From a virus, in IMG/VR virus record IMGVR_UViG_3300007734_000624, positions 1-35,667 of that record: a stretch of DNA of 35,667 nt. The stretch is one strand, 5' to 3'. The notes below the pieces were generated by a model that worked only from the letters and a program-made list of their open reading frames with translations, did no database searches and had not been told where the DNA came from. Of this stretch, positions 6,227 to 30,476 are shown one piece after another (position 1 is the stretch's first letter; the number at the start of each line of letters is the position of its first letter). The position numbers and the translations under genes were made by a program.

Positions 6227-6317
6227 GACTGACTCCTTCGCGGATCGGCTCCGCTTGGCCGTCGAGAGGACTTCTCTCGACATGGGAATCATCGGACATA
6301 TCCCGATGATTTCACCA
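6227..6317 (-). promoter_or_regulatory. Conserved promoter-leader module, copy 2
   Basis: -35 GTGAAA at 6310-6315, -10 GATGAT at 6288-6293 (spacer 16), then hairpin 1 (GTCGAGAG/CTCTCGAC, 6261-6281), a GCGGA/TCCGC hairpin, and AAGGAGTCAGTC before the ATG at 6226. It lies next to three degenerate 21-bp repeats (6320-6375) that could be operators. Confidence 0.78.
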
Positions 6318-6319
6318 CC

Positions 6320-6375
6320 ATTGCCCGAGGATTCCCAAAGATTTCCCGAGATTGCCCAAACCCCCGAGAATCGCC
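6320..6375. repeat. Three degenerate 21-bp tandem repeats upstream of an early promoter
   Basis: On the plus strand 6320-6340 and 6341-6361 align as ATT(G/T)CCCGAG(G)ATT(C/G)CCCAAA(G/C), followed by a shorter third copy (CCCGAGAATCGCCC). They sit just upstream of the -35 box of promoter module 2. They resemble operator or iteron arrays. A regulator binding there is inference. Confidence 0.55.
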
Positions 6376-6437
6376 CTAGAGACGCTCGGAAATCGGGGCA
6401 GGGCAGATAGGGGTCCAAGCCATCCGAACGCCTCCCA

Positions 6438-6455
6438 GAGGCGGGAAACCGCCTC
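6438..6455. repeat. Hairpin with GAAA loop before the plus-strand gene
   Basis: Seven-base perfect stem (6438-6444 with 6449-6455). On the plus strand the loop is GAAA, a GNRA tetraloop. It lies 20 bases before the plus-strand ATG at 6476. Without a T-run it is more likely a leader structure than a terminator. The rest of 6318-6475 contains only the repeats and no gene that I can see. Confidence 0.5.
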
Positions 6456-6475
6456 CCTGCCGTATCCTGCGCCCC

Positions 6476-6841
6476 ATGCCCATCCCGCCACCCCATCGGG
6501 GAGCGGCCGAGGCGGCGGAGCTCCTGCGGCTGGTGTCGGCAGCTGGGGCGATGCTGGCAATGGAGCCGCAGTCCCCAGCTCTCCGCGCGGCCGCGAGGGA
6601 GAAGCTCCGCCGCCTAGGCCTCGAGCGGAACAGCCTGCGCATGCTCATGCGGATCGTCGCTGCCAGCTCACGAGCTGGAGCCCTGCACTCGAGGCCCGCA
6701 ATCCGATTCGACGGCAGGCCAGACGATCCGCTTGCCACGATCGACGCGCTGACCGTCGCGCACGACATCGAGCTCGACTCGAGCAGGCGCAGAGGCATTG
6801 CGTACTGCCTCTCCACCACCATCGTCTCGGTCACACGATGA
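6476..6841 (+). CDS. Possible lone plus-strand gene (121 aa), function unknown
   Basis: Open frame of 121 residues on the plus strand, convergent with the tail gene and overlapping its end by 11 bases. The translation looks protein-like: an alanine/leucine-rich helix (EAAELLRLVSAAGAML), a basic segment (LRRLGLERNSLRMLMRIV) and an acidic region (DPLATIDALTVAHDIELD), with about 11% acidic residues. The opposite frame (6376-6834) is serine/arginine/glycine-rich and poor in acidic residues, as expected for a shadow. No clear ribosome-binding site precedes the ATG at 6476, so the start is unsure. Its place between the early and late blocks would suit a regulator. If it is not real, 6227-6830 holds no gene. 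Confidence 0.45.
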   Translation: MPIPPPHRGAAEAAELLRLVSAAGAMLAMEPQSPALRAAAREKLRRLGLERNSLRMLMRIVAASSRAGALHSRPAIRFDGRPDDPLATIDALTVAHDIELDSSRRRGIAYCLSTTIVSVTR

Positions 6842-8201
6842 GCGCATCCGAGATGTTCGGAGCTGCCGAGTTCGGCAGCACGACTCCGTTCCCGTACAAG
6901 TCGTACGAACGGTCGAAGCTCTTATTGAACTTGCCCTCGAAGTTGTTCGTGACGAGCAGGCGCAGCGAGTCGTTGACGACGAAGTTCGTGCTGCCTGCGA
7001 CGATGGTCAGGCCGACCCCGCCTTCAGCGATCTGCCGCATCTCGTTCACCACCAGCTCGTCAATGTAGAAGATGCCGCCTGCGCTCGCCGCGGTCGTGAG
7101 CTTGATGCCGACATACACCGAGCTAGGCAAGGCAAGCGGAGCTCGGAACGGGATCGTCTTCAGTCCGTAGGTCGTGCCTGTCGTGTACGGGACATCGACA
7201 TACGATGTCGCCGAGAGCAGCGTGCCAGCTGAATCGCAGAGGCAGATACGGAGGTTGCCCGCTGTGATGCCTGCGCTCGTGCGGCAGTAGACCGAGAGGA
7301 GATAGAGACGGTCGGCAACGAGCGTTGCAGGCGTGCCGTCCACAGATCCCATCTGCTGCCGTATCTGGGTCAGGTTCGCTGCGTCGCCGACGAACTTGAG
7401 CGCGCTCGAGCCGCGATAGGTCACGCTTGTCTCTTGAAGGTAGTGCGTGCCAGCCGTGCCGACCACCGACTCCCATCCATCGGGCAGGTTGCTCGTGAAG
7501 TTCGCAAAGTTCGAGTTGCGCATCATGTTCTCGTAGCGTGCGCCGTTGTCGACTCCAGCATGGACCGCGGCCATCGTCATGCGGGTACCGCTGCCAGCTG
7601 GCCAGCGGTAGTCGAGGTTCGGGTACGAAGCCCAGCCTCGGATCTCGAAGCGTTCCTCTCCCGCACGCATCATGCCGTCCTGCGCATCTTGAATGCAGCG
7701 TGCCTCGAGTCGTTCGGAGCGCGCGCAGGGATACTGCGTGCCTCCAGCGGACATCGAGTTCGGAGGAAGCTCGGAGAACACCAGCGTGCCGTTGCCCGTG
7801 TTCGTTCCCGTGGTGACCGCGCTCTTCGAGATCGTCGTGCGGTTCACGGTCTTCGCGTCCGCGACCATCTCCCTGTTGAGGTAGAGCAGCGCCTGAGGCA
7901 CGGTCTTCTCTGGGAGCACGCCGCGCGTGCTCACGAGGCTGTCGGCGTAGCAGGTCTCGACGAGGGTCGCCTGCGCTGCGGAGTTCAGGTCGTTCAGGAT
8001 CTGCCCAGTCTGGACGAGGCGGCTCTCGATCGACGCAACGAGGCTTGCGATCATGTAGAAGTCGGCATCGGTGTACTCGGCCTGAAGGGCGAGCAGTCGC
8101 GTCTTCAGGTCGCTCTGGTGCGTCTTCACCGCATCCATCATGCCGAAGATTTTGCCGAGCCGAGTGAAGAGTCCATTCGTGCCATCATAGGTGAGTGCCA
8201 T
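6831..8201 (-). CDS. Tail-associated structural protein (456 aa)
   Basis: 456 residues, last gene of the late block. Residues 1-90 (MALTYDGTNGLFTRLGKIFGMMDAV...) form a helical module that I have seen at the start of virion proteins in phages of uncultured bacteria. Residues about 215-375 look like a carbohydrate-binding-type beta-sandwich (MRNSNFANF..LPDGWESV, GSSALKFVG, YLLSVYCRTSAG, FYIDELVV), and the C-terminal 70 residues are beta-rich. This is compatible with a tail-tip or receptor-binding protein. The start at 8201 has AAGGAG and overlaps the preceding gene by 17 bases. Confidence 0.75.
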   Translation of the reverse strand: MALTYDGTNGLFTRLGKIFGMMDAVKTHQSDLKTRLLALQAEYTDADFYMIASLVASIESRLVQTGQILNDLNSAAQATLVETCYADSLVSTRGVLPEKTVPQALLYLNREMVADAKTVNRTTISKSAVTTGTNTGNGTLVFSELPPNSMSAGGTQYPCARSERLEARCIQDAQDGMMRAGEERFEIRGWASYPNLDYRWPAGSGTRMTMAAVHAGVDNGARYENMMRNSNFANFTSNLPDGWESVVGTAGTHYLQETSVTYRGSSALKFVGDAANLTQIRQQMGSVDGTPATLVADRLYLLSVYCRTSAGITAGNLRICLCDSAGTLLSATSYVDVPYTTGTTYGLKTIPFRAPLALPSSVYVGIKLTTAASAGGIFYIDELVVNEMRQIAEGGVGLTIVAGSTNFVVNDSLRLLVTNNFEGKFNKSFDRSYDLYGNGVVLPNSAAPNISDALIV

Positions 8202-16053: not shown

Positions 16054-16239
16054 TCAGGTCCTTGTCGGCTTCATCGGCTTGGTGATGAGCTTCGGAGAGT
16101 CCTCTCGGTCCTTCTTGCCGAGGAGCTCTACGATGCCCTTCGCCTCGAGTTTGACGGCCAGCTCTGGCGTGATGCCGACGAGCGCGCCGACGCGGTGGCC
16201 GTTCCAAGGCTTGCGGATGATGCACGGGGTCGAGCTCAA
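16054..16239 (-). CDS. Small hypothetical head-region protein (61 aa)
   Basis: 61 residues. The core (PWNGHRVGALVGITPELAVKLEAKGIVEL) resembles a short beta-alpha unit found in many phages between capsid and connector genes (pattern W.G...G..V.......A..L...G). Function is unknown. The start overlaps the stop of the methyltransferase-glycosyltransferase gene by four bases (ATGA). Confidence 0.7.
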   Translation of the reverse strand: MSSTPCIIRKPWNGHRVGALVGITPELAVKLEAKGIVELLGKKDREDSPKLITKPMKPTRT

Positions 16240-17402
16240 ACTGGCCTTCCCTTCTCGTGATACTCGGGGAGGTACTGGTGGACGGGCGCGAGGTTCGCGT
16301 CGAGCCAGCTGCCGACGAGCTGGAGATGGCCGATGCGCACGCGAGGCGTGGTCGCGATCTTGAGGCCGTGCTCTGCGGCACGCTTCCAGAACCAGATGTC
16401 GTCATCCATGCGGCCGTCGGACCACTCGCCGTTCTCGTCTGGCTCGCCCTTGAACCACGGGTGGGGGAGCTTGGCAAGAGCCGAGGCTCGGATCATGGTC
16501 AGTCCGAAGTGTCCGAACTGGACTGGCCAGATTAGGTCCCTTAGCCTGTCCCGCCCGATTGCGCTCATCGCCGTACCGTCGGCTTCGGTCGGCTTCACGA
16601 GCAGCTGGTTCCTGTCCCGACCAATCTGGAGCGGGCAGACGACATCGTACTCGGAGGCATCTGCGATCTCGCGGAGCGCGAGGATGTCGATCTCATCGAA
16701 GAGCGAGTCGAAGTCGATGGTGAGGATCCACTCGGGATTTTTCTCCTTGATGATCCGAGTCATGCCGCGCTCGAGGCATTGACCCCAGAAGACTCCTGTC
16801 GTCTTCACGAAGGGCATCTGAAGCGTGCGGCAGGCCTCGGCGGCCGATGCCATCGTCTCGGTCCATGCGATGCGCGGCATCGACATGATGGCGACCGTGT
16901 CCTGCAACATCCGAGCTGGAGGGACATACCTGCCGATCTTGACCGCCTTGAAGTTCAGGGAGATCGGAACGCCAGCGCAGGTCCCCGTCTCTTGAAACTC
17001 GCCCTCGACTCTCAGCCCAGCCATGCCGAGGATTGCCCCGAGCTTCTGCGGGTTGAAGATCGCATGATGCGCATCGTGCTCGTCGGTGTGGCCGCCCATG
17101 AGCCAGCCCTCGATGGGGAAGCCGTCGCTATCTGGGCTGTCGTACGCCTTCAGGATCTTGTCGATGTTCGGCACGGCCACCCAGAGGATGCCGCCGAGCT
17201 TCAACGCTCGAGACCACTCCCTCACGACATCGAGCGTCTCCCTGAACGAGATGTGCTCTAGGACATGGATGGCTCGGATCTCGTCGAGCTGGCCGTCCGC
17301 GATGCCGACGAGCCTGCGCGCGTCGCATCCCTGCTTGATGTCCCATGCGGTGAATCCGTCCTTCAGACGGTCGCCGCATCCGATGTCCAGTTTGGTAACC
17401 AT
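16236..17402 (-). CDS. Methyltransferase-glycosyltransferase fusion (388 aa)
   Basis: Two domains are visible. Residues 1-155: class I SAM-dependent methyltransferase, with LDIGCG (5-10), the acidic D21 region and HVLEHI (46-51) followed by WVAVPN. Residues about 168-388: a GT-A/GT2-like glycosyltransferase with WILTIDFDS (225-233, DxD type D230/D232), VCPLQIGRDRNQLL and MDDDIWFW (332-339) near the C-terminus. It may modify a virion protein or a sugar precursor; the target is unknown. LDIGCG begins at residue 5, so translation must start at the ATG at 17402, which has no ribosome-binding site and directly follows a strong hairpin. Confidence 0.82.
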   Translation of the reverse strand: MVTKLDIGCGDRLKDGFTAWDIKQGCDARRLVGIADGQLDEIRAIHVLEHISFRETLDVVREWSRALKLGGILWVAVPNIDKILKAYDSPDSDGFPIEGWLMGGHTDEHDAHHAIFNPQKLGAILGMAGLRVEGEFQETGTCAGVPISLNFKAVKIGRYVPPARMLQDTVAIMSMPRIAWTETMASAAEACRTLQMPFVKTTGVFWGQCLERGMTRIIKEKNPEWILTIDFDSLFDEIDILALREIADASEYDVVCPLQIGRDRNQLLVKPTEADGTAMSAIGRDRLRDLIWPVQFGHFGLTMIRASALAKLPHPWFKGEPDENGEWSDGRMDDDIWFWKRAAEHGLKIATTPRVRIGHLQLVGSWLDANLAPVHQYLPEYHEKGRPV

Positions 17403-19995: not shown

Positions 19996-21086
19996 TCGGT
20001 TGTTCCCTTTGCTTCGTTTGCCTGAAGACGAGCCCGCGCGGAGTCGAGGTGCGACTGGAGGTTGTCGACCAGCTGGGGCATCAAGGCACATCGGCAATGC
20101 GGGTGGAGAGGAGGAGCCCCGACATCCTCGTAGTCGAGGACCATCGTGCCGCCGTCCGCCCCGACGAGCTCGCTGCCCATCGGGAAGAAGGAGTCGCCGA
20201 TGCCGACGCTCTTCTCTCCGTACATGTTCGCGGCCGCCTCGCAGAACTCGCAGGGGTCTGGAGCAAGCAGCCAAGTCTTGCCCGTGACCAGCCCTGTCGA
20301 CTTCCATGCGTCGAGCTCGGATGTCGCGGCGGCCCTTGCGGCCTCTGTCCTCGCGATCATCCGCGCACGAGCTCGAGTCCCTCGCTCCTCGTCTCCTTCG
20401 GACGCGGCCCATGCCTGCACACGCTTGGTCAGCATGCCCGTGTCCTCGCCCATCTCCATGCCGATCCCGAGCAGGGACTTGACCGCGACCTCGGTGTACG
20501 AGTTCACGCCATCCGCAGCCTTGTTCGACAGGCGGGTCGTCGCCCTCTCGACATACGCCATCATCTCCTTCGGCTTCCATCCCAGCTCTGCGACGATCGC
20601 TCGAGAGCCGACCATCTTGCCGAGCGTGTTCATGCCGAGGTCGATGCCGTGCTCGATGCTTCCTCGGATGAATGGGGAGAGCGCCTCGACGAGGTACGGA
20701 TTCCATTCCGCCTTGTCGAGCACCTTCAGGACCTTCTCGACGAGAGCGCCATCGACCGTCGATGCGGACTGGATCTCTTTCACGACCGCATCCACCTGCT
20801 TGCCGAGCACCTTGTCGACCGTCTTCATCCAGCTGCCGAGCAGCTCGTCGTTGACGAGCTTGCCAATTCCTGCCTTGGTCCACATCTCCGACTGCATGAC
20901 CTTTGTGTGATGCCCGCATCCGCATGCATGCTTGGCCTTGAGCTCATCTGGAACTGGTATGCCGTTCTCCTCGGCAACGGCGGCGATGATTGCCGCTCGG
21001 TCTCGATCGTCACCGCCCCAGACCTTTTGATAGGAGTCGGCATAGGCGATCACTTCTTCGATGCTGTTCATCTTGGTCGGAGTCAT
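19992..21086 (-). CDS. MuF-like minor head / head morphogenesis protein
   Basis: 364 residues. The N-terminal ~190 are mainly helical and include CGCGHHTK (about 55-62). Residues about 215-345 form the MuF domain: MLTKRVQAW, ARARMIARTEAARAAATSELDAWKSTG, LAPDPCEFCEAA and the final HPHCRCAL, whose Cys/His set probably binds a metal. MuF proteins are minor capsid proteins near the portal. The start overlaps the portal stop as ATGA. Confidence 0.9.
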   Translation of the reverse strand: MTPTKMNSIEEVIAYADSYQKVWGGDDRDRAAIIAAVAEENGIPVPDELKAKHACGCGHHTKVMQSEMWTKAGIGKLVNDELLGSWMKTVDKVLGKQVDAVVKEIQSASTVDGALVEKVLKVLDKAEWNPYLVEALSPFIRGSIEHGIDLGMNTLGKMVGSRAIVAELGWKPKEMMAYVERATTRLSNKAADGVNSYTEVAVKSLLGIGMEMGEDTGMLTKRVQAWAASEGDEERGTRARARMIARTEAARAAATSELDAWKSTGLVTGKTWLLAPDPCEFCEAAANMYGEKSVGIGDSFFPMGSELVGADGGTMVLDYEDVGAPPLHPHCRCALMPQLVDNLQSHLDSARARLQANEAKGTTE

Positions 21087-23926
21087 TCGGCCACCTTCTT
21101 CGGCTGAGGCCTCGTGTGCGATTTCCGCACGGCGGGCGGCACATTCGGACCATGGAACTTGTCGTAGAGCTTCCAGCATTCGGGAGTCAGCTTGGTCCCC
21201 TTGACAAGCATCTCGTGAGTCACCGCAACGAACTCCAGCCTGTTCGTCCGTCCGTACGGACGGTATCCGCCTGCTGCCGCGATGGCGTTCTCGTCCGCGC
21301 TGAGGGAGACCTTTTGCGATATGAATCCCCTGCTCCAGACATGCTCTCCGCGCGGAGCCGCCGCATGGTGAGCATGCGCAAGCTCGTGAACCATGTTGTC
21401 GACCGACGGACCCGACGCTGGATTGAAGATGATCGCTCCATCCGAATGCCTCCAGTATGCAGCGGCTCCGTCCTGCTTGAAATGCTCGTCCCACATGCGC
21501 TGCGATGGAACGAATACCGCATTCCCTCCAGTCGCTCGAGAGAAGAAGTGACTGGAAGCGACCGCCGCATATGCGACCTGCGCTGCATCTACGGCATCCA
21601 TCTCTACGCCGTCTGGGGTTGCCGACAGGTCGCAGCCAGCTCTCTTAGCAATGGCCGTGTAGACCTTCTGAGCGGCTGCATCCACCTTTGCCTTGAGCGC
21701 GGCTCCGCCGATCCTCTCCGCATCCTGCAAAGCCTTTGCGAGAGGGCGCAACGCATCTACGGGATCTGCGATGGGAAGCCCTTCGTTTGCCGCCTTTGCC
21801 GCATCGTCTATCTGCTTAGTAATCACAGCGCCAGCCTCTGCCAGCTTTGTCTTTACTTCTTGGGGTGCGTCGATCGTGCCGAGTGCCGATGCCATGATGC
21901 CGACATCGGTCTTCAGCAAGGCATGGTCGACATCATCGCCTGACCATCCTCCCTCAGTCGTCGATGGCTTCTTGGACGAGCTGGAAGCATCGGATGATCC
22001 GCCGCCGTCACCGCCTCCGCATTCGTTCCCAGCTTGGAAGCCTCCAGCTACCGTGCCGCAGTTCTTGATCTCCATCGCCGCGGCTGCGATGGAGACTGAG
22101 CTGCCGCATGAACAAGGCGGAGCCGCCTTGCCCGACTGGCACATCTGGAACGCGATCGCGATCGCCTGCTCGTGCGGGTATCCCTCGCCGATGAGCTTGG
22201 AAATCTTGGCAGACACGCACTCCTGAAGCGGGTCAGCTTTCATGCTGATGTCGTTTGCCTTGGTCGGCGTAACCGCGGCGGGTGCAGCTGGAGCTGGAGT
22301 AGCCGAGCTCGGCACGATCGGGCTGAAGATCGAGTCGATGACCGTCTGGGGGATCGACGGGAAGGCCGCTGCCGCGATCGCCCGTGCCGACTCGAGCGGG
22401 AGCTCGCCCGACTTGGCCTGAGCGGCCAGCGTGACGAGAGAGGAAATCTGGGCTCCGTTGAGTGCCGTATTCGCCACGGGCTGCCCAGCCGCAGGCTGGG
22501 GCGCGTCCGTAGGGCTGGGAGGCGTTGCTGGAGCTGGGGAGGGTAGTTGCCCTGCCCCGCCATCGAGGGCTGGGAGCGCATCTCCGCCCGTTCCCTGAGC
22601 TGGCTGGGCTGGCTGCCCTCCGAGGGGCTGGCCGCCCACATGGAGCTTGTCAGCCTCGGGATCGGGGAGAGCGTCCAGACCCTGCTCCTGCCGTGCCTCG
22701 TTCGCGGTCATCCAGCCGCCGCTGACCGCCGCCTGCCGCTCCGCGAGATCCTGCTGCCGATTGCTCGGCACGGGATTGTCGTACGCGAGGATGGCATCGC
22801 CCTCGAGTCCGAACATGGGCAGCAGGCGCTGGTTCAGGATCTCTTCATCCATACGTGCCAGCGGGAGGACCGTCATCTCTCGCCAGCTCGTGAAGCCAGT
22901 CTGCGCCGACGCGAGGTTCGGGTCGTTTGCCTTCAGCATGCTGACAGGCACGCCAAAGACGGCAGCAATCTCCTCGACCACCGCCTCGCGGCCCGTGATG
23001 TCCTTCGGCGGGAACTGGAGCGGCTTCAGGTCGATCTCTTGGTTCGCGATGAGGAAGCTGCCAGACTTCCGCGTACCTTGCAGCTTGTCTTTGAGCTGCT
23101 CCTCGAAGACGGCCATGTCGTCCTCGCTCGCCGCTCCCTTGATGCTGACCAGATAGTCGGGGCGACCTTGGTTCTTGAAGGTCGAGAGGTCCATCTCGTG
23201 AAGCGCCGTGTTTGCCGCAGCGACACCCCATGCCGCCTCAAGCTTGCCCATGCCGTAGAGCAGGTCGCGGGGATTCGGCCGCTTGAAGTGAATCACCTCC
23301 TCGGGGGTGAAGCGCACCTCGGATTCCCTGCTGCGCCCGTAGACATAGCCATCTACGAACCGTTCCTCGCTGGGGATGATGCGGGTCCATTGCGGCGGCA
23401 TCGGATACAGCTGCGACGGCACTCCCATGCTGGGATCGGTCACGACATGCAGGTACGCATTGCCAGTCAGCTCCTGCCACACCACGCGCAGCACGGTCGC
23501 GTCGAATCCGTTCAGCCACGGGTTGCTGACCGAGAGCAGGCGGAGCAGCGGATGGTCGTCGGTGACCTCCTCGAAGTCCGAGCCGATCTCGGCTGCCTTG
23601 CGCATCACCGCGACGCTCGGGCGCATGCGGCCGTCTCCGAGGAGATAGGCCTTCCTCTCGTTCTCGACCCGCCGCGTACGCCAGAGCTTCGTGCGGCTGC
23701 CTCCGTTGCGAATGTAGAGACGCAATGGCAGGGCGGCGACGGCATTCGCGTTGATCGATGCCGCCGCATAGACCCAGCTCGAGAACGAACGCACGCCGAG
23801 CTCGTGGCTGAACGGAGGAGCCGCTCCATCCTTCCCGCTGCCCGAACGCATCACCGCGTGGTTCCATGACCGAGGGGAGGATGCCTTGATTCCGAGGAGC
23901 TTCGCGATGAAAGAGGGTTTCGGCAT
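21083..23926 (-). CDS. Portal protein with C-terminal metalloprotease-like domain (947 aa)
   Basis: The first ~430 residues are an HK97-type portal: SFSSWVYAAASINANAVAALPLRLY (about 47-71), NPWLNGFDATVLRVVWQELTGNAYLHVV (135-162), EEVIHFKRPNPRDLLYGMGKLE (209-230), EEIAAVFGVPVSMLK (318-332). A P/A/G/Q-rich linker follows (430-490), then a CVSAKISKLIGEGYPHEQAIAIAFQMC module (570-596) and a Gly/Ser-rich spacer (620-660). Residues ~665-935 look like a folded domain with HELAH at 847-851 and FVAVTHE at 893-899 downstream (possible third ligand E898). This is about twice the usual portal length. The ATG at 23926 shares a base with the terminase stop. The frame is open throughout, so the fusion is not an obvious sequencing artefact. 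Confidence 0.88.
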   Translation of the reverse strand: MPKPSFIAKLLGIKASSPRSWNHAVMRSGSGKDGAAPPFSHELGVRSFSSWVYAAASINANAVAALPLRLYIRNGGSRTKLWRTRRVENERKAYLLGDGRMRPSVAVMRKAAEIGSDFEEVTDDHPLLRLLSVSNPWLNGFDATVLRVVWQELTGNAYLHVVTDPSMGVPSQLYPMPPQWTRIIPSEERFVDGYVYGRSRESEVRFTPEEVIHFKRPNPRDLLYGMGKLEAAWGVAAANTALHEMDLSTFKNQGRPDYLVSIKGAASEDDMAVFEEQLKDKLQGTRKSGSFLIANQEIDLKPLQFPPKDITGREAVVEEIAAVFGVPVSMLKANDPNLASAQTGFTSWREMTVLPLARMDEEILNQRLLPMFGLEGDAILAYDNPVPSNRQQDLAERQAAVSGGWMTANEARQEQGLDALPDPEADKLHVGGQPLGGQPAQPAQGTGGDALPALDGGAGQLPSPAPATPPSPTDAPQPAAGQPVANTALNGAQISSLVTLAAQAKSGELPLESARAIAAAAFPSIPQTVIDSIFSPIVPSSATPAPAAPAAVTPTKANDISMKADPLQECVSAKISKLIGEGYPHEQAIAIAFQMCQSGKAAPPCSCGSSVSIAAAAMEIKNCGTVAGGFQAGNECGGGDGGGSSDASSSSKKPSTTEGGWSGDDVDHALLKTDVGIMASALGTIDAPQEVKTKLAEAGAVITKQIDDAAKAANEGLPIADPVDALRPLAKALQDAERIGGAALKAKVDAAAQKVYTAIAKRAGCDLSATPDGVEMDAVDAAQVAYAAVASSHFFSRATGGNAVFVPSQRMWDEHFKQDGAAAYWRHSDGAIIFNPASGPSVDNMVHELAHAHHAAAPRGEHVWSRGFISQKVSLSADENAIAAAGGYRPYGRTNRLEFVAVTHEMLVKGTKLTPECWKLYDKFHGPNVPPAVRKSHTRPQPKKVAE

Positions 23927-25137
23927 TAGACGACCTTCAGGATGAGCGGCCTGTGCTTGCGCTTCGCGGCCAACGCAAGTGCGAGGGCGCACACGCCGTC
24001 GTCGTGGCCAGCATTGGCCTCGTACACGACCCGCCCTCCGCTATATCGGAAGCCGAAGCTGTCAAGCTCAGCTCGCAGCCAGCCGTCAGGGTAGCGGATC
24101 TCCCGACCTTGGATCGCAGATGCCAGTCCTTCCATGAGCTGCTGCTTGCTCTGGGAGGTGAATCTCCACCCCTTCACGCCCTTGCATTGCCTCGCGATGT
24201 CCTCGACGATCGGATCGCCCACGCCCGTCGAGTCGATGAATGCCGTCTTGTGGCCGATCATCGACATGATGCGCGTGCGGGTCGCTCCCCAGTCGCCGTG
24301 CCAACGCTCGAGCACGCAGACGGATCCCGATGCATCGAGGCCGCAGACGACCGTCCAGTCGACCGATTTGGCGAGGTCGATGCCGTAGGCCACGGGAGGC
24401 TGCGTACTGAGCTGGCCGATGCACGATCGGATGGCATCGACCCCGAATGGATTCGAGCCATCGTCAGAAGCCTCCGCCATGTAGAGCTCGCGAAATACTG
24501 GCTCGGGGAGAATGGCCTTCGCCTGCTGGATCTCGTCGGACTCGAGGATGCCTCCATCGACGGCATCGAGTGCGGTGAGCTTGTGATACGCCATGTTGGG
24601 CATCCCAGCCTCCGCCATCCGAGCAAGTCGGTAGCACCAGTTCTTCCGACCCTTGACATTGCCGATGATGCGCAGCGGTCCTCGAGTCGCGGTCAAGGTC
24701 GAGCGCACGGCGTTGAATGCCTCCTCTGGGCATCTCGTCGCCTCGTCGATGACCGCCGCCGAGACATCGTCGCCGTAGAGCGTGTCGGGATTGTCCGCCG
24801 ACTTGAACCACATCGTGGCTCCGTTCAGCAGGCGGATCGAGAGCGTGCTCTCGTTCGCGGTCCATGCCACGGCCGTCGGGTCGCTCTCTCGCAGCATCCT
24901 GACCATGCGTGCATATGCGACGGTTTTGGTGACGGAGAAGGTCGGGGCGACCCACCAGTACGCCCCGACCCCGCCGTTCCATGCCTGAGTCAGCAGCCAA
25001 AGCAGGCAGCCAGCCGTCTTGCCGCTCTTCGTCGATGCCTCGATGATGACGATGCGGGCAGGATCGCAGATCGCGGCATGCTGCTTCGGATACAGAGCTG
25101 GAAGCTCTGGAGGAGCGATCGTGATGCCATTAGCCAC
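23926..25137 (-). CDS. terL: Terminase large subunit
   Basis: 403 residues. ATPase: Walker A-like EASTKSGKT (33-41), Walker B AAVIDEA (127-133) with catalytic E132, and the coupling region around LRIIGNVKG (155-163). Nuclease: GIDLAKSVDWTVV (252-264, D254), FIDSTGVGD (300-308, D302) and HDDGVCALALA (378-388). It drives DNA packaging at the portal and cuts the concatemer. Its start overlaps the preceding small gene by 8 bases. Confidence 0.95.
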   Translation of the reverse strand: MANGITIAPPELPALYPKQHAAICDPARIVIIEASTKSGKTAGCLLWLLTQAWNGGVGAYWWVAPTFSVTKTVAYARMVRMLRESDPTAVAWTANESTLSIRLLNGATMWFKSADNPDTLYGDDVSAAVIDEATRCPEEAFNAVRSTLTATRGPLRIIGNVKGRKNWCYRLARMAEAGMPNMAYHKLTALDAVDGGILESDEIQQAKAILPEPVFRELYMAEASDDGSNPFGVDAIRSCIGQLSTQPPVAYGIDLAKSVDWTVVCGLDASGSVCVLERWHGDWGATRTRIMSMIGHKTAFIDSTGVGDPIVEDIARQCKGVKGWRFTSQSKQQLMEGLASAIQGREIRYPDGWLRAELDSFGFRYSGGRVVYEANAGHDDGVCALALALAAKRKHRPLILKVV

Positions 25138-25450
25138 TCGATCCGCCGACCTTCAAGGTGATCGGCAGGAGCTGGATCGAGTCCGTCGGCTTGCCCTCGT
25201 CGAGACGCTCGATGCGGTCGGCCGCCTGCAATGCCGAGAGGTTGTCCCGCTGCATGGCGACGAGGATCTCGACCGCGCGCAGGCGTTCCCTGTCCGACCG
25301 TGCGTTCGCGATCAATCCAGTCACCACGCGCGGCAACTGGTCCATGAGCTCGTCGGGGATGTTCCATCGTCCCTCGATGGCACGGCGGATGAGCCGCGCG
25401 CCTGCGCGCTCGTGCTTCTTCTCGATGATGCGTTTTGCCTTGCGAGTCAT
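25130..25450 (-). CDS. Putative small terminase subunit (106 aa)
   Basis: 106 residues, basic at the N-terminus (MTRKAKRIIEKKHERAGARLIRRA), then helical (PDELMDQLPRVVTGLIANARSDRERLRAVEILVAM). It lies directly before the large terminase and overlaps it by 8 bases, the normal place of the small subunit that recognises packaging sites. No clear helix-turn-helix signature is seen, so identity rests on position. The start overlaps the phosphoribosyltransferase-FolE stop by ATGA, which couples packaging to the modification genes. Confidence 0.6.
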   Translation of the reverse strand: MTRKAKRIIEKKHERAGARLIRRAIEGRWNIPDELMDQLPRVVTGLIANARSDRERLRAVEILVAMQRDNLSALQAADRIERLDEGKPTDSIQLLPITLKVGGSSG

Positions 25451-26355
25451 AGCATCGACAGCAGCTGGGACTTGACGGCTGGATCCTCGGACAAGCAGCC
25501 GTGAAAGCTGCTGGTCACCATCTCGGCATCTGGCTGGCGCACGCCTCGGCAACCCATGCACGAGTGGTGCGCCTTCATCACACACGCGGTCCCAGCCGAG
25601 AAGACCGAACGATGGAGCGTCTCGGCAATCTGCCGAGTGAGCCGCTCCTGAAGCTGTGGCCGCCGCGCGAAGACTTCGACCAGACGGGGAATCTTCGACA
25701 GGCCTACGACCTTGCCCTGCGGCATGTACGCGACCACGGCCGTGCCAGAGAACGGCAGCAGGTGATGCTCGCACATGGAGGTGAAGCGGATGCCGCGCAC
25801 GGTCACCATCTCGTTGTTCGAGTCGGTGAACATCGTGCCGAGGCAGGTGACAGGATTCTCCCGCAGGCCGCCAGTCATTTCTCCGAGCGCCTTGACGACT
25901 CGGCGCGGCGTATCGATCAATCCCTCGCGCAGCGGGTCTTCACCGATGAACTCGAGCAGGCGCACGACCGCATCCTCCGCTCCCGTTCCCTTCTCCCACG
26001 GGAACTTGAGCCAGCTGTCCACGAGGGTGGCATTGGGCGCGCTCTCGAGCGGGGAATGTCCCTTGCGATAGAGCGCGTCAGTGCGCAGCCCTGCCTTGAG
26101 GTACGGCTCCATCGTCCGCCCGCTGTCGACGAGGTCGTCGATGACGAGGATGCGATGCTTCTCCTCGAGCGACACTAGCGACTCGACCGTCTCGTCGGGA
26201 AGCAGGATGCGGCACTTCAGCTGCTTCGCAACGAGCATGGCGGGGATGAGGCCGCCCATCGGCACGCCGAAGACCGCCTCGATCTTGCGGCGCTTGTAGT
26301 GCTCCGCGATCTCCTCGCAGCGGGCCGCGATCTCCGACCACTTCAGCTCGATCAT
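25447..26355 (-). CDS. folE: Phosphoribosyltransferase-GTP cyclohydrolase I (FolE) fusion
   Basis: 302 residues in one frame. Residues 1-120: type I phosphoribosyltransferase, with FGVPMGGLIPAMLVAKQL (29-46) and the PRPP-binding motif RILVIDDLVDSGRTM (68-82), close to GPT/xanthine-guanine types. Residues ~122-302: GTP cyclohydrolase I, with EDAVVRLLEFIGEDPLREGLIDTPRRVVKAL, FTSMCEHHLLPF (C195, H198 as zinc ligands), KVVGLSKIPRLVEVFARRPQLQERLT and HHSCMGCRGV (C266 as third ligand). FolE makes dihydroneopterin triphosphate, the entry to preQ0. The fused domain may supply GMP from free guanine. ATGA overlaps exist at both ends. Confidence 0.93.
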   Translation of the reverse strand: MIELKWSEIAARCEEIAEHYKRRKIEAVFGVPMGGLIPAMLVAKQLKCRILLPDETVESLVSLEEKHRILVIDDLVDSGRTMEPYLKAGLRTDALYRKGHSPLESAPNATLVDSWLKFPWEKGTGAEDAVVRLLEFIGEDPLREGLIDTPRRVVKALGEMTGGLRENPVTCLGTMFTDSNNEMVTVRGIRFTSMCEHHLLPFSGTAVVAYMPQGKVVGLSKIPRLVEVFARRPQLQERLTRQIAETLHRSVFSAGTACVMKAHHSCMGCRGVRQPDAEMVTSSFHGCLSEDPAVKSQLLSML

Positions 26356-26999
26356 CGGACCCTCCAGAGCTTGTGATGCTGAGGGGAGAGCCGCCATTGC
26401 GGGTTCCGCTTCACGAGATCGAGGCACCAAGCGATCGCTCGGGGATCGCTCGATAGCCCGTCGAATGCGGGCGAGATGAGCTGGTGGTCTGCCTTGACCA
26501 TCGTGCGCGGGATCTCCTGCCCGTGTCCCCTGACATACTTGACCTCGTGCGCACGGCGCTGCTTGATCGCGTGCTCGGCGACCTTCGGCGACACCGTGAT
26601 CCAATCGAGCGGCAGAGCGTCGATGTTGACCGATCCGTTTGTCTCGATCGCGAGACGCATGTGGATGGCATGGCAGGCATCGCAGAGCTCTTGGTCGAGC
26701 TGGAGGGCTGGCTCCCCTCCCGTGAAGACGATCCAAGGCGAGTAGCTCTCAAGCCATTCTCCGCCGATGCCGAGCTTGATCGTCTCGACGATCGCGGCAA
26801 CCAGCTCGTCCAGCTTGTAGTCCCTGCCCGACTCGAACTCGGTGTCGCAGTCGAAGCCTCCGATCGACTTCGGACCCGCCTCCTTGGCGCAGCGGAGGTT
26901 GCATCCCGTGAATCGGACGAAGCAGGACATTTCGCCCGCACGCACGCCTTCTCCCTGCGGAGACCAGAAGATTTCGTTTACGCGGTAGTGCCGAGCCAT
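26352..26999 (-). CDS. queE: QueE-like 7-carboxy-7-deazaguanine synthase
   Basis: 215 residues. QueE hallmarks are RVNEIFWSPQGEGVRAG (6-22), FTGCNLRC (30-37), CDTEF (51-55), WIVFTGGEPALQL and LAIETNGS. It is a radical SAM enzyme converting 6-carboxytetrahydropterin to 7-carboxy-7-deazaguanine. The cluster-binding cysteines are unusual: C33, C37 and C51 (CX3CX13C) in place of the common CX3CX2C, with an inserted KEAGPKSIGGFD loop. Starting at 26999 it overlaps queD by 22 bases, with a weak GAGG upstream. It ends in ATGA with the FolE fusion. Confidence 0.9.
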   Translation of the reverse strand: MARHYRVNEIFWSPQGEGVRAGEMSCFVRFTGCNLRCAKEAGPKSIGGFDCDTEFESGRDYKLDELVAAIVETIKLGIGGEWLESYSPWIVFTGGEPALQLDQELCDACHAIHMRLAIETNGSVNIDALPLDWITVSPKVAEHAIKQRRAHEVKYVRGHGQEIPRTMVKADHQLISPAFDGLSSDPRAIAWCLDLVKRNPQWRLSPQHHKLWRVR

Positions 27000-27391
27000 A
27001 TGGCGATGTCCTCGATGGTCGCGACCACGGTCGCGCTGTCTGTTTCCGTGAGTGAGAGCTCAATGACCTCGGGCAGCTTGCCTCGGCATCGAGCGAGAAG
27101 ATAGGCGGCCATGTGCTCCGCGCTCGTCGCGAAGGGAAGAACCACCGCATCTGGCACGGCACGGGCGACGGGGTCGGCCTCGTGCGCGAGCGTGCGATGG
27201 TCCAGCTCATCGAAGATCGGGGACAGCCATCGGTCGATCTCCGCGAAGAGGATGCCAACACCCTTGCCCGTCGGCTTGACCTCGAGCGTGACCTCGACCC
27301 CGTAGCGATGGCCGTGAAGCCGAGAGCACTTGTCGTTCAGCTCGGCATTGCGATGGGCTGCGTAGAAGCGGAAGCGGCGCTTGATCTTCAT
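26978..27391 (-). CDS. queD: QueD, 6-carboxy-5,6,7,8-tetrahydropterin synthase
   Basis: 137 residues. Zinc ligands H13, H26 and H28 are present in AAHR and LHGHRYG, with catalytic C22 (DKCSRLHGH) between. LDHRTL (63-68) gives the Asp/His pair, and TSAEHMAAYL and LTETDSATV complete the family pattern. It converts dihydroneopterin triphosphate from FolE to 6-carboxytetrahydropterin, the QueE substrate. Start overlaps the queC stop as ATGA. Length is normal. Confidence 0.93.
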   Translation of the reverse strand: MKIKRRFRFYAAHRNAELNDKCSRLHGHRYGVEVTLEVKPTGKGVGILFAEIDRWLSPIFDELDHRTLAHEADPVARAVPDAVVLPFATSAEHMAAYLLARCRGKLPEVIELSLTETDSATVVATIEDIAIWLGTTA

Positions 27392-28071
27392 TGCGCGTCT
27401 CCCTCGTCGTCGAGATCGTACGGCGTGTCGTCGTCCACTCCCGCGATCTCGAAGGCCTCGATGCGCTCGACGCAGGTCCCGCATCGCCCGCAATGGATGT
27501 GGGCTCCCTCGTAGCAGCTCCATGTGTGGCGCATGGGGGCATCGATGCGGTCGCCCAGCTCGACGATCTCCGCCTTCGTCTTGTCGAGGAACGGAGCGAG
27601 CAGGCGGAAGTTCTCCGCATTCCAGTTGCCGCTCCTGACGGCCATCTCGAAGTCGGTGCAGAACTCCTCGCGGCAGTCGGGATAGATGGCGTGATCGCCG
27701 CCATGCGCAGCGAAGGCAACGCCGTCGAATCCGATCGCGAGAGCGTGCGCAGCGGCGATGGACAGCATCATCATGTTGCGGTTGGGGACGACCGTCTTCT
27801 TCATCGACGGAGCGGCGTAGTGTCCCTGCGGGACATCGACCGCCTCGTCGGTGAGCGAGCAGTTCGGCAGGAGCTTGGACATCCAAGCCATGTCGATCTC
27901 GATCCGCTCGACCCCGAGGATGGCTGCGACGCTCTTCGCGTAGTCCAGCTCCCGAGCGTGGCGCTGCCCGTAGTTGACCGACAGACCCTTGACCTCGTGA
28001 CCCTCGCGGATCAGCTTCGCGACCAGCACGGTCGAGTCGAGCCCTCCCGACATCAATGCGACGATCCTCAT
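27388..28071 (-). CDS. queC: QueC, 7-cyano-7-deazaguanine (preQ0) synthase
   Basis: 227 residues. The PP-loop ATPase motif SGGLDSTV is at residues 8-15; NYGQRHARELDYAK, VPNRNMMMLSIAAAHAL, GDHAIYPDCREEF and the zinc-binding C186, C194, C197, C200 set (WSCYEG..HCGRCGTC) are all as in QueC. It converts 7-carboxy-7-deazaguanine to preQ0 with ATP and ammonia. There is no glutamine-amidotransferase (GAT) extension, so it should stop at preQ0 formation. ATGA overlaps on both sides. Confidence 0.95.
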   Translation of the reverse strand: MRIVALMSGGLDSTVLVAKLIREGHEVKGLSVNYGQRHARELDYAKSVAAILGVERIEIDMAWMSKLLPNCSLTDEAVDVPQGHYAAPSMKKTVVPNRNMMMLSIAAAHALAIGFDGVAFAAHGGDHAIYPDCREEFCTDFEMAVRSGNWNAENFRLLAPFLDKTKAEIVELGDRIDAPMRHTWSCYEGAHIHCGRCGTCVERIEAFEIAGVDDDTPYDLDDEGDAQ

Positions 28072-28928
28072 GCGGTGACTCCTCGAAGGTGCGAGTTCAT
28101 CATGTCCTGAGCGTATGCGGCATCCCGATACATCCATGCGACCATCGTCTGGTACGCATGCTTGCCAAGTCCATGGCGATAGCGGTACTCATCGACGAAG
28201 GTGAACTCGAAGGACGAGGTGTGCTTCATCGGCAGGCAGTAGCGGAGCGGAGCGGTCGGAGAGCTGGCATCGCAGCTCTCGCACGGCGCGGTGAGGAAGC
28301 TGGGGCAGATGCCGACACCGAGCGCATGGATCCATTCGACGGGCAGGCTCTTGCGCGACTCCTCGATGCGGCGGAGGATCTTGGCCTGCGTGCGCCGATC
28401 GGCTCGGACGAGGTTGCCGATCGCGACTCGGTCGTAGGTCGATGCCAGCTCCTCGAAGTAATCCCACGGGTCGTTGAGCGCATGGAACACGGGGATGGGT
28501 GCGTATCCCAGACCCTCCAGATGCGCTCGGACTTCCCTCTTGCCCTCGACTCCTCCGAGGTCGATCTCGACATATCCCCAGCAGGACGAGCGCATGCGGT
28601 CGATGACCTTCCGCCACTTCACGAGGAAGTCGGCGCTGCCCTCGATCTCGTCGAATCTGGTCTTCACGGCTTGGCTGAACGGCACGCCCATCTTGCGCGA
28701 TGCTTCGACCGCAACGCCGAACACGCCGCTGTCGATGAAGAGCCTGCCGCCGTCGTCGATGAATGCATCGAGCCCGTCGAGATCCTTGTCGCGTGCCATG
28801 TACGGGGCTGCGACGAGCAGGGACTTGTGGCAGCGTCCAGCCGTCGCAAGCGAGTTCTCGAACACCGAGACGAAGAACAGGTGCCGTTCATCCCGCGACC
28901 AGACCCCATCGGTCTTGCGCAGGCTCAT
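28068..28928 (-). CDS. dpdA: DpdA-like DNA guanine transglycosylase (TGT family)
   Basis: 286 residues. TGT/DpdA pattern: LFIDSGVFG (63-71, with D66 in the nucleophile/base-binding region), YVEIDLGG (119-126), PIPVFHALNDPWDYFEELAST (145-164), RVAIGNLVRA (167-176) and EWIHALGVG (198-206). The C-terminal CPSFLTAPCESCD (C208, C216, C219) may bind zinc. DpdA exchanges guanine in DNA for preQ0. No canonical tRNA TGT, QueF or QueA is present and all preQ0 genes are adjacent, which supports a DNA role. The ATG at 28928 overlaps the ParB-like stop (ATGA). Confidence 0.88.
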   Translation of the reverse strand: MSLRKTDGVWSRDERHLFFVSVFENSLATAGRCHKSLLVAAPYMARDKDLDGLDAFIDDGGRLFIDSGVFGVAVEASRKMGVPFSQAVKTRFDEIEGSADFLVKWRKVIDRMRSSCWGYVEIDLGGVEGKREVRAHLEGLGYAPIPVFHALNDPWDYFEELASTYDRVAIGNLVRADRRTQAKILRRIEESRKSLPVEWIHALGVGICPSFLTAPCESCDASSPTAPLRYCLPMKHTSSFEFTFVDEYRYRHGLGKHAYQTMVAWMYRDAAYAQDMMNSHLRGVTA

Positions 28929-29707
28929 CGGATGGGCATCCCGAGCGGGGAGACCTCGATGCCTCGCGCCCGTGCGATTCTGAACATGTATGCCACGGCC
29001 TCTCGGATCGGCTGGAGGAGCAGCAGCTTCCTCGAGTCGCGCTGCGGAGATGCGAGGAGGAACGCCGACGGATACGGCCAGACGGCCTCGATCTCTGGGG
29101 TGAGCAGGCTGCGCCAGATGTGGAGCTCGCGGACGGGATGGCAGACGCAGACGATCGAGTTCCCGATCATCCATGCGCTTCCGAGCTCGGGCAGCTCGTC
29201 GTCCGCCATGTCCTCGTATACGCCCTCGAAGACGGCATCGGCGACCTCTGGGGTGACCTCCTCCGCCTTCTCTGCCAGCTTCTCCAGCTCGGCGGCAAGC
29301 TCGTCGTCGTCGATGCCGAGGATCTCGGTGTCGAAGCCCGACTCTCCCAGCTGGGCAAGCTGGTCGGAGAGCTGCTGCCAGTCCCACTCCGCAAGCTCTG
29401 CGGATCGGTTGTCAGCGATGGCGTACGCCTTCGCCTCGTCGCCGTCTAGCTTGGTGAAGACGACCATCATCTCCAGCCATCCCAGCTCTCGAGCGGCCGC
29501 GAGTGTGGCATTGCCAGCGATGACCGTGCCGTCCTTCTTGGCGACGATCGGCTTCTGCTGACCGAATCGCTCGAGGGACAGCTTCACGGCCTCCAGATTC
29601 CGAGCGTCGTGCTTGCGGACATTCGTCGGATCGTGGCGCAGGTTCTCGATGGGAACGAACACGAAGTCGCCCCCTGACCCCCGACTGTTGCGGTTGCCTC
29701 TGGACAT
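28925..29707 (-). CDS. ParB/Srx-domain protein with possible degenerate methyltransferase tail
   Basis: 260 residues from the ATG at 29707, which has GAGGAGG before it; an ATG at 29782 with GGAG is the alternative. Residues ~14-105 form a ParB/sulfiredoxin-like domain: VPIENLRHDPTNVRKHDARNLEAVKLSLERFGQQKPIV, VIAGNATLAAARELG and YAIADNRSAELAEWD. In phages this domain is often fused to an N6/N4-adenine methyltransferase. Here the region after ~175 aligns loosely with the start of such a domain (GSAWMIGNSIVCVC) but lacks a CGD and has WPYPSAF where DPPY would be expected. It is coupled to dpdA and may help target it. Confidence 0.8.
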   Translation of the reverse strand: MSRGNRNSRGSGGDFVFVPIENLRHDPTNVRKHDARNLEAVKLSLERFGQQKPIVAKKDGTVIAGNATLAAARELGWLEMMVVFTKLDGDEAKAYAIADNRSAELAEWDWQQLSDQLAQLGESGFDTEILGIDDDELAAELEKLAEKAEEVTPEVADAVFEGVYEDMADDELPELGSAWMIGNSIVCVCHPVRELHIWRSLLTPEIEAVWPYPSAFLLASPQRDSRKLLLLQPIREAVAYMFRIARARGIEVSPLGMPIR

Positions 29708-29768
29708 GTATGCCTCCTCGGGGACTCGACCCGATGGGAGTGTCGCAGCGATCTCGTGCCGAGTCAAG

Positions 29769-30476
29769 TCACCGCTGGACATCGATCTCCAGCAGCAGCT
29801 GGTCGATGTACACGCTTCGCGCGGTCGTGCCGACCGACTTCACGATCATCGCCGTGACCGCGGTCGCTTGGCCCGTCCCTGTCGGTATCGAATCGGTTGC
29901 TGCGGTCGAGCGCGTGGCCTTCAGCACTCCGTCGATGTAGAAGAGCGCGACGCTCGCGGCCTTGTTCACGATGACCTCGAAGGTGTGCCATCCCGTATCT
30001 GCGGCGACGCCCGTATCGGTCGCCGTGGTGAGCGTGCCTCCAGATGCGTACGACATGGCCGTCCAGTTGCCAGCTGCGGAGCCGTGCGAGTACGAGAAGT
30101 AGACCCCGTCCGTCGGAAGGGCAGCCGTGCGCACATCATGGAATCCGACATTGACCGTGAAGGTCTGCGCGGCCGTCGAGAGCACGGGGATCTTCAGGGT
30201 GCAGCTCATGCGATGCTCCCTCGTGCCGAACACGATCGCATCGGTCGTGGCGTTGCCAATGCCTGCGCTGGCCGTGGCGCTTGCGGCCGTCGCGGAGTCG
30301 AGCACGCCGACGCGGTTGCCATCGTTGTTCAGGGCGGCGGTCGTGAAGGTGTTCGTGCCGCCCGTGCCGATGTTCGTCCAGTCGGCCGCGGCGTTCATGT
30401 CGCTGAAGAGCACGGCCTTGTCGCGCGGATCGACGACGAACTTCGGGTGGAGGACCTGCGGTACGCCTCGTATCAC
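29769..30476 (-). CDS. LamG/concanavalin-like virion protein (235 aa)
   Basis: 235 residues from a GTG overlapping the previous stop (GTGA). The order SCTLKIPVLSTAAQTFTVNVGFHD, GVYFSYSHGSAAGNW, DTGWHTFEVIVNKAASVALFYIDGVLKATRS and a final YIDQLLLEI follows a jelly-roll of LamG/concanavalin type, which often binds sugars or forms part of tail fibres and capsid spikes. Its place between lysis-type genes and DNA-modification genes is unusual for a structural protein. Confidence 0.75.
   Translation of the reverse strand: MIRGVPQVLHPKFVVDPRDKAVLFSDMNAAADWTNIGTGGTNTFTTAALNNDGNRVGVLDSATAASATASAGIGNATTDAIVFGTREHRMSCTLKIPVLSTAAQTFTVNVGFHDVRTAALPTDGVYFSYSHGSAAGNWTAMSYASGGTLTTATDTGVAADTGWHTFEVIVNKAASVALFYIDGVLKATRSTAATDSIPTGTGQATAVTAMIVKSVGTTARSVYIDQLLLEIDVQR

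Follow-up and report, generated by a model that had tools for sequence, protein, structure and literature searches.

A viral preQ0/DpdA-type cassette with a phosphoribosyltransferase-like domain fused to FolE and a probable ParB-like partner of DpdA

Does the virus represented by IMG/VR record IMGVR_UViG_3300007734_000624 exchange guanines in its own DNA for a 7-deazaguanine and, if so, for which one? The whole record (35,667 bases, 63% G+C), referred to here as the window, encodes FolE, QueE, QueD, QueC, and a DpdA-type transglycosylase on its minus strand. The first four enzymes would convert guanosine triphosphate (GTP) to 7-cyano-7-deazaguanine (preQ0), and we consider it probable, from the sequence and by analogy with characterized phages, that preQ0 is made by this cassette and inserted into the phage DNA. 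This estimate covers the making and insertion of preQ0; the ParB and guanine-recycling roles discussed below are graded separately. Gene presence and folds were computed, and preQ0 synthesis and base exchange were assigned on the basis of protein families and of phages that share this gene set and whose DNA has been measured. Cassettes of this kind are already known; two parts of this one had been overlooked, the phosphoribosyltransferase (PRTase) domain fused to FolE and the probable ParB partner of DpdA. The cassette comprises the following genes (window coordinates).

28925..29782, minus strand: ParB-like protein, 285 amino acids; ParB domain at about residues 40 to 180, then a tail at about residues 200 to 285; PHROGs ParB/methyltransferase families
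28068..28928, minus strand: DpdA-type transglycosylase, 286 amino acids; phrog_887; 9g/CAjan alignment; D66, D123, H201, D220
27388..28071, minus strand: QueC, 227 amino acids; Pfam QueC, TIGR00364; without an amidotransferase (GAT) domain
26978..27391, minus strand: QueD, 137 amino acids; Pfam PTPS; TIGR03367
26352..26999, minus strand: QueE, 215 amino acids; TIGR04508; radical-SAM motif CX3CX13C
25447..26355, minus strand: XGPRT-like phosphoribosyltransferase (residues 1 to 123) plus FolE (residues 124 to 302), 302 amino acids; Pfam Pribosyltran, GTP_cyclohydroI

The five enzyme open reading frames (ORFs) are all open and are linked by ATGA or short overlaps, and the stop of the ParB-like ORF overlaps the dpdA start (ATGA). 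The initial annotation, made from the letters of the sequence, had listed five adjacent genes joined by ATGA overlaps; its coordinates were correct, and FolE, QueE, QueD, QueC, and DpdA were all confirmed by ORFs and profiles. However, it overlooked the overlapping ParB-like gene, which belongs to the unit and makes it a six-gene set, and it read the FolE gene as a single domain, which was right for the FolE part but missed the N-terminal phosphoribosyltransferase.

Profile matches were strong or clear for four of the five enzymes. QueC matched Pfam QueC (5e-61, 206 bits) and NCBIfam TIGR00364 (4e-56, above the curated cutoff), and it has the SGGLDS loop and the CYEGAHIHCGRCGTC zinc motif. The FolE domain matched Pfam GTP cyclohydrolase I (1e-65), and QueD matched Pfam PTPS (1e-22, 80.5 bits) and TIGR03367 (E value of 3e-18, below the cutoff). 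QueE matched the NCBIfam 7-carboxy-7-deazaguanine synthase family TIGR04508 (1e-40, below the curated cutoff). Its cluster motif is CX3CX13C, compared with the canonical CX3CX2C; in an alignment with about 140 relatives, the three Cys residues coincide, and the exact spacing was present in 34 aligned proteins, that of the window included. Elsewhere among the cassettes, QueE shows CX3CX2C or still other spacings and keeps the three Cys residues. FolE, QueD, QueE, and QueC, the enzymes expected of a phage preQ0/DpdA cassette, are all encoded, and the proposal of a complete GTP-to-preQ0 pathway accompanied by a DpdA-type transglycosylase was borne out by ORFs, profile matches, and residues.

DpdA was the weakest of the five by sequence. 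Its sole family match was phrog_887 ("queuine tRNA-ribosyltransferase," 1e-13), for which reason its structure was predicted; comparison of the sequence alone with solved structures had yielded nothing useful. The AlphaFold2 model (alignment of 38 proteins of viral contigs; mean pLDDT of 82) is a TGT-like TIM barrel, with the fold of tRNA-guanine transglycosylases (TGTs) being the closest according to both Foldseek and a second structural aligner. All 50 PDB entries among the matches listed were TGTs (best, 1iq8; Z score of 13.6, root mean square deviation [rmsd] of 3.2, 196 residues), and several of the best-matching viral models were annotated as queuine tRNA-ribosyltransferases. D66, H201, and D220 align with D72, H196, and D215 of 9g DpdA, as well as with CAjan DpdA, and no variation was seen at D66, S67, G68, H201, S218, or D220 across the 38 proteins of the alignment; His196 is a conserved residue in 9g-type DpdA (PMC6884629). 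The initial annotation had named the loss of the catalytic Asp pair as fatal to its proposal; given this alignment and the invariance of D66 and D220, the pair is present. By analogy with TGTs, Asp220 is likely the nucleophile and Asp66 likely the acid/base in the DpdA barrel. The enzyme would break the glycosidic bond of chosen guanines in the phage DNA, free the guanine, and insert preQ0. From the match to TGTs and the alignment of Asp66, His201, and Asp220 with 9g and CAjan, we infer that the deoxynucleoside of preQ0 (dPreQ0) is the best reading of the mark.

That same fold, being the fold of tRNA-modifying enzymes, is what one would expect if the transglycosylase acted on tRNA and the cassette boosted host queuosine or preQ0-tRNA without marking DNA. 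We regard such a target as very improbable, since the protein can be aligned with phage DpdA proteins whose function on DNA is known and shares with them the His absent from DpdA2, is shorter (286 amino acids) than solved tRNA TGTs (about 350 to 580 amino acids), and is encoded by a gene linked to ParB and terminases. In a quick tree (all trees in this work were of this type, without bootstrap), the window protein fell outside the 9g/CAjan clade, in a separate, starred clade of 10, and it is therefore named DpdA type and not filed as DpdA1. Four cassettes (L125, L132, L175, and L189) bear two DpdA ORFs.

The enzyme set is shared with phages whose DNA has been measured, and the window therefore falls into an already known cassette type. 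In CAjan and Rosebush, which have these enzymes but no amidotransferase, dPreQ0 replaces about 32% and 28% of G, respectively, and removal of dpdA in CAjan abolishes dPreQ0 and renders the DNA sensitive to restriction enzymes (PMC6884629). The predicted purpose of the base exchange is to hide the phage from bacterial defenses. The same gene order is reported for mycobacteriophage CRB2 (ParB, TGT, queC, queD, queE, then terS and terL), in which the first six genes are similar to those of subcluster B2 and for which a DpdB homologue was suggested by the authors (PMC6392294); the DNA of Rosebush was measured as dPreQ0 (PMC6884629). Bipper has nearly the order of the window (ParB-like, TGT, QueD, QueE, FolE, then terminase). 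Compared with the Rosebush/CRB2 cassette, the window has an XGPRT-like domain on FolE, a DpdA from a divergent clade, and a ParB with a methyltransferase-like tail. The preQ0/G+ clusters of Queuovirinae (CAjan, 9g, and JG054) and the cluster of MMDA13 have the same enzymes and predicted chemistry, but they adjoin DNA polymerase genes, differ in gene order, and have no ParB-DpdA pair among their annotated neighbors; FolE of 9g and CAjan, unlike that of the window, is without a PRTase domain.

Residues 1 to 123 of the fusion protein matched Pfam Pribosyltran (4e-9) and NCBIfam xanthine PRTase (3e-11), and their sequence matches in the PDB were Gpt-type enzymes. In the AlphaFold2 model (pLDDT of 93.6), this part resembled Escherichia coli XGPRT (Z score of 16.3, rmsd of 2.0, 114 residues), and residues 124 to 302 resembled FolE structures (Z score of 25). 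Invariant residues were G34, G35, D73, D74, D77, G79, T81, K98, W115, P119, W120, and E121 in seven fusions and G35, D73, D74, D77, G79, T81, and W120 in 40. In Gpt, the corresponding residues form the phosphoribosyl pyrophosphate (PRPP) motif, supply the Lys that contacts the base, and make up the Trp hood. The domain has the PRTase type I fold, the PRPP motif, and the Trp and Pro-Trp-Glu hood in common with Gpt/XGPRT, from which it differs in being shorter and fused to FolE.

The fusion is widespread, with at least 338 relatives in viral contigs, and the domain was therefore rejected as a one-off of this contig. It also occurs in Queuovirinae (JG054, VpKK5, and others) and MMDA13, annotated only as GTP cyclohydrolase, the label given to it in all the phage records examined. 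We found no mention of the fusion in the literature searched, which did not extend to a 2023 paper on further phage 7-deazaguanines. The contig-scan samples used here and below were chosen by similarity, and their proportions are not population frequencies. Fusion loci sat with QueC/D/E or DpdA in 99 of 103 cases; in the other four, the fusion lay within about 330 bases of the sequence end. Among 80 bacterial-genome folE loci, only two had the fusion, both inside viral-type cassettes; it was present in none of the 78 outside such cassettes (18 of them beside host queC/D/E), on which ground the domain was rejected as a general FolE feature. Viral cassettes had the fusion in 34 of 71 cases and lacked it in 37, in a sample picked by similarity to an unfused FolE. 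Well-supported branches of the FolE tree imply at least six changes of state for the domain. A separate PRTase gene lies just before folE in Flavobacterium phage immuto and just after it in Brevundimonas phage MaInes. A large phage contig (L064:5857-6999) has PRTase and FolE as two adjacent ORFs, a split form of the fusion, and two bacterial genomes (L219:2627-3217, Acidimicrobiia; L239:2844-3452, Actinotignum) have an unfused PRTase gene a few kilobases from folE.

This distribution indicates that the domain goes with cassettes for DNA base exchange and not with preQ0 synthesis in general, and guanine released by DpdA is therefore a candidate substrate. Each mark frees one guanine and spends one GTP. 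The record holds 22,508 G:C pairs; at the Rosebush and CAjan levels (28 to 32% of G), about 6,300 to 7,200 guanines would be freed per genome copy, and a recycling domain fused to the first enzyme would therefore make metabolic sense. The XGPRT-like domain would convert the released guanine (or host guanine or xanthine) to guanosine or xanthosine monophosphate (GMP or XMP), which would return as GTP to FolE. Recycling of DpdA-released guanine to GMP is our preferred but unproven reading of the domain.

Two other roles were weighed. The domain could be a regulator that tunes FolE in response to PRPP or a purine nucleotide: it is compact, with most of the segment from about residue 50 to 68 missing in several relatives, and PyrR and guanosine tetraphosphate (ppGpp)-binding proteins of the PRTase fold were among the structural matches (at lower Z scores). 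A regulator is doubtful, if worth keeping in mind, because XGPRT was the best structural match and the full PRPP signature and the Trp/Pro-Trp-Glu hood, seen in stand-alone forms, are kept in the fused ones. The domain might instead make a nucleotide from preQ0 or another 7-deazaguanine for incorporation by a polymerase, as could be imagined from the Campylobacter phages, which encode a stand-alone relative and were at one time proposed to use a modified-dGTP route (PMC6884629). We think this quite unlikely: this cassette and most others with the fusion encode a DpdA, D77 is invariant, and 7-deazaguanines have no N7. D77 corresponds to the Asp that contacts N7 in purine PRTases such as Gpt. 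Transglycosylases were also reportedly found in all such phages by Cui in 2023.

The gene overlapping dpdA is the second addition. ParB adjoined DpdA in 68 of 97 testable nonredundant related cassettes, being upstream in 61, and one locus (L065:8891-10414) encodes a natural 507-amino-acid DpdA-ParB fusion (DpdA at residues 1 to 257, E value of 3e-34; ParB at residues 279 to 403, E value of 5e-27). In bacterial Dpd systems, the ParB-like ATPase DpdB partners the DpdA that inserts preQ0 into DNA (PMC12839542). The window likewise pairs a ParB-superfamily protein with DpdA, a likeness of family and position, and the protein was not filed as DpdB; unlike bacterial Dpd, the record is without DpdC, and there are no restriction genes among its annotated genes. 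The ParB-like protein is probably a DNA-handling partner of DpdA that helps it to hold or choose DNA, and the link makes it a concrete candidate for the guide of DpdA on DNA.

Beyond the ParB domain, the window protein continues for an additional 110 or so residues. All nine members of its DpdA clade that could be assessed have this tail, and none of 70 other ParB-bearing cassettes does; since the nine belong to a single clade, this counts as one event. The tail can be aligned with the beginning of phage ParB-DNA methyltransferases (such as pOW20-A and AcaML1 gp25), in which a ParB domain is likewise followed by a GDVWxLGxHRLxC stretch, and aligns weakly with their C-terminal end, but the catalytic core (DPPY and FGGSG motifs) is missing. 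By hhalign, the first half matched the methyltransferase with an E value of 4e-5 (single comparison) and a probability of 71%, and the second half matched weakly (E value of 0.15); the tail profile also weakly matched an unrelated ATPase-like ORF in L082, and scores at such a level need care. The alignments suggest that the tail is a methyltransferase remnant reused with DpdA, and the shrunken tail would be part of the protein that assists DpdA.

Which base, then, would be inserted? The initial annotation had seen no QueF, GAT-QueC, or DpdC and predicted dPreQ0, and profile searches were in line with this as far as the 35.7-kb record extends. The QueF profile scored only FolE itself, and QueF was rejected, its sole match being the homologous FolE fold. 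Neither DpdC nor phrog_17812 was found in the record, a DpdC/YaaA-type enzyme was rejected as absent, and QueC (227 amino acids) is without GAT; ArcS was not searched for, and the record, for which no end repeats were noted, may be a fragment. The presence of QueC argues for preQ0 as the inserted base. Across cassettes, QueC and phrog_17812 (function unassigned; about 110 amino acids, weakly like QueD) were mutually exclusive: 67 had QueC, 30 had phrog_17812 (L002:1358-1678, L037:4490-4855, L110:3408-3749, and 27 other viral cassettes), and none had both (chance of about 3e-19 under independence of loci, which does not hold). By parsimony, the two alternate at least 12 times on the DpdA tree. 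This exclusivity suggests that the base is chosen by gene swap, and it would provide a simple rule for predicting the base that a phage uses. A phage 7-carboxy-7-deazaguanine decarboxylase is reportedly predicted in a 2023 paper; phrog_17812 may be this enzyme or a functional equivalent. It also occurs in Cellulophaga phages phiST, phi13:1, and phi19:2 and in large Pseudomonas phages such as PA5oct.

Several points weigh against our reading of the cassette. DpdA had no TGT match in Pfam or NCBIfam, it is divergent (best identity to the nearest relative, 42% over 172 columns), and its model has low confidence after residue 223, with the last 60 or so residues poor. The ParB domain could be an unrelated regulator, and about half of the FolE-sampled viral cassettes do without the PRTase domain, which is therefore not essential. 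The window's DpdA clade of 10 comprises eight members with phrog_17812 and two with QueC; the clade may therefore accept more than one base, dPreQ0 is likely but not certain, and the preferred base of the window DpdA may not be preQ0. With these eight partners using phrog_17812 instead of QueC, a possibly incomplete record, and mixed bases in Vibrio phage nt-1 (PMC6884629), the cassette might modify DNA with an intermediate (e.g., 7-carboxy-7-deazaguanine) or with a derivative made from preQ0 by an off-record or host enzyme. A final base other than preQ0 is nevertheless unlikely, with QueC intact inside the operon and QueF, DpdC, and phrog_17812 not found in the record. Insertion of preQ0 is the reading that we retain. 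The fuller scheme, i.e., a closed purine loop in which the PRTase captures DpdA-expelled guanine, a DpdA partner derived from a ParB-methyltransferase, and a base changed by swapping QueC and phrog_17812, is offered tentatively, as possible rather than probable.

The position directly upstream of the terminase, also proposed initially, was confirmed, the cassette overlapping into the following genes.

25130..25450, minus strand: probable small terminase subunit (TerS), 106 amino acids; precedes terL; conserved with relatives L002, L010, and L011
23926..25137, minus strand: large terminase subunit (TerL); Pfam Terminase_6N, phrog_2

The probable TerS ORF had no family match in Pfam or PHROGs. 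The minus strand bears nearly all predicted genes of the record, including those for an Erf-like annealing protein, an exonuclease VIII-like protein, portal, head protease, major head protein, and terminase, and the gene run from the gene at 30476-29769 to the terminases is overlapping and unbroken. From this co-orientation, gene overlap, and position, late cotranscription of the cassette with the terminases is plausible. An internal promoter scan of the cassette found no consensus sites and was uninformative. That marking may be timed with packaging is a suggestion drawn from gene order. The position recurs: of 35 cassette loci in which TerL was recognized, 29 have FolE no more than 1.5 kb upstream of it, in a sample biased by a TerL profile started from this window. 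In L011, whose terminase is 73% identical, the flanking PDDEXK gene and TerS are about 2 kb apart and cassette genes are lacking, compared with a distance of about 6 kb in the window; the cassette is therefore a movable module set directly before terS. A glycine-rich ORF and others occupy the site before terS in L011 (L011:5679-7588).

Two further genes of the window have unusual architectures. The portal protein (21083-23794) has a long C-terminal extension, to 903 amino acids, in which a HELAH sequence at residue 803 recalls zinc metallopeptidases, but no Pfam match. A 388-amino-acid protein encoded between head genes (16236-17402) combines an N-terminal methyltransferase-like domain with a C-terminal glycosyltransferase-like stretch.

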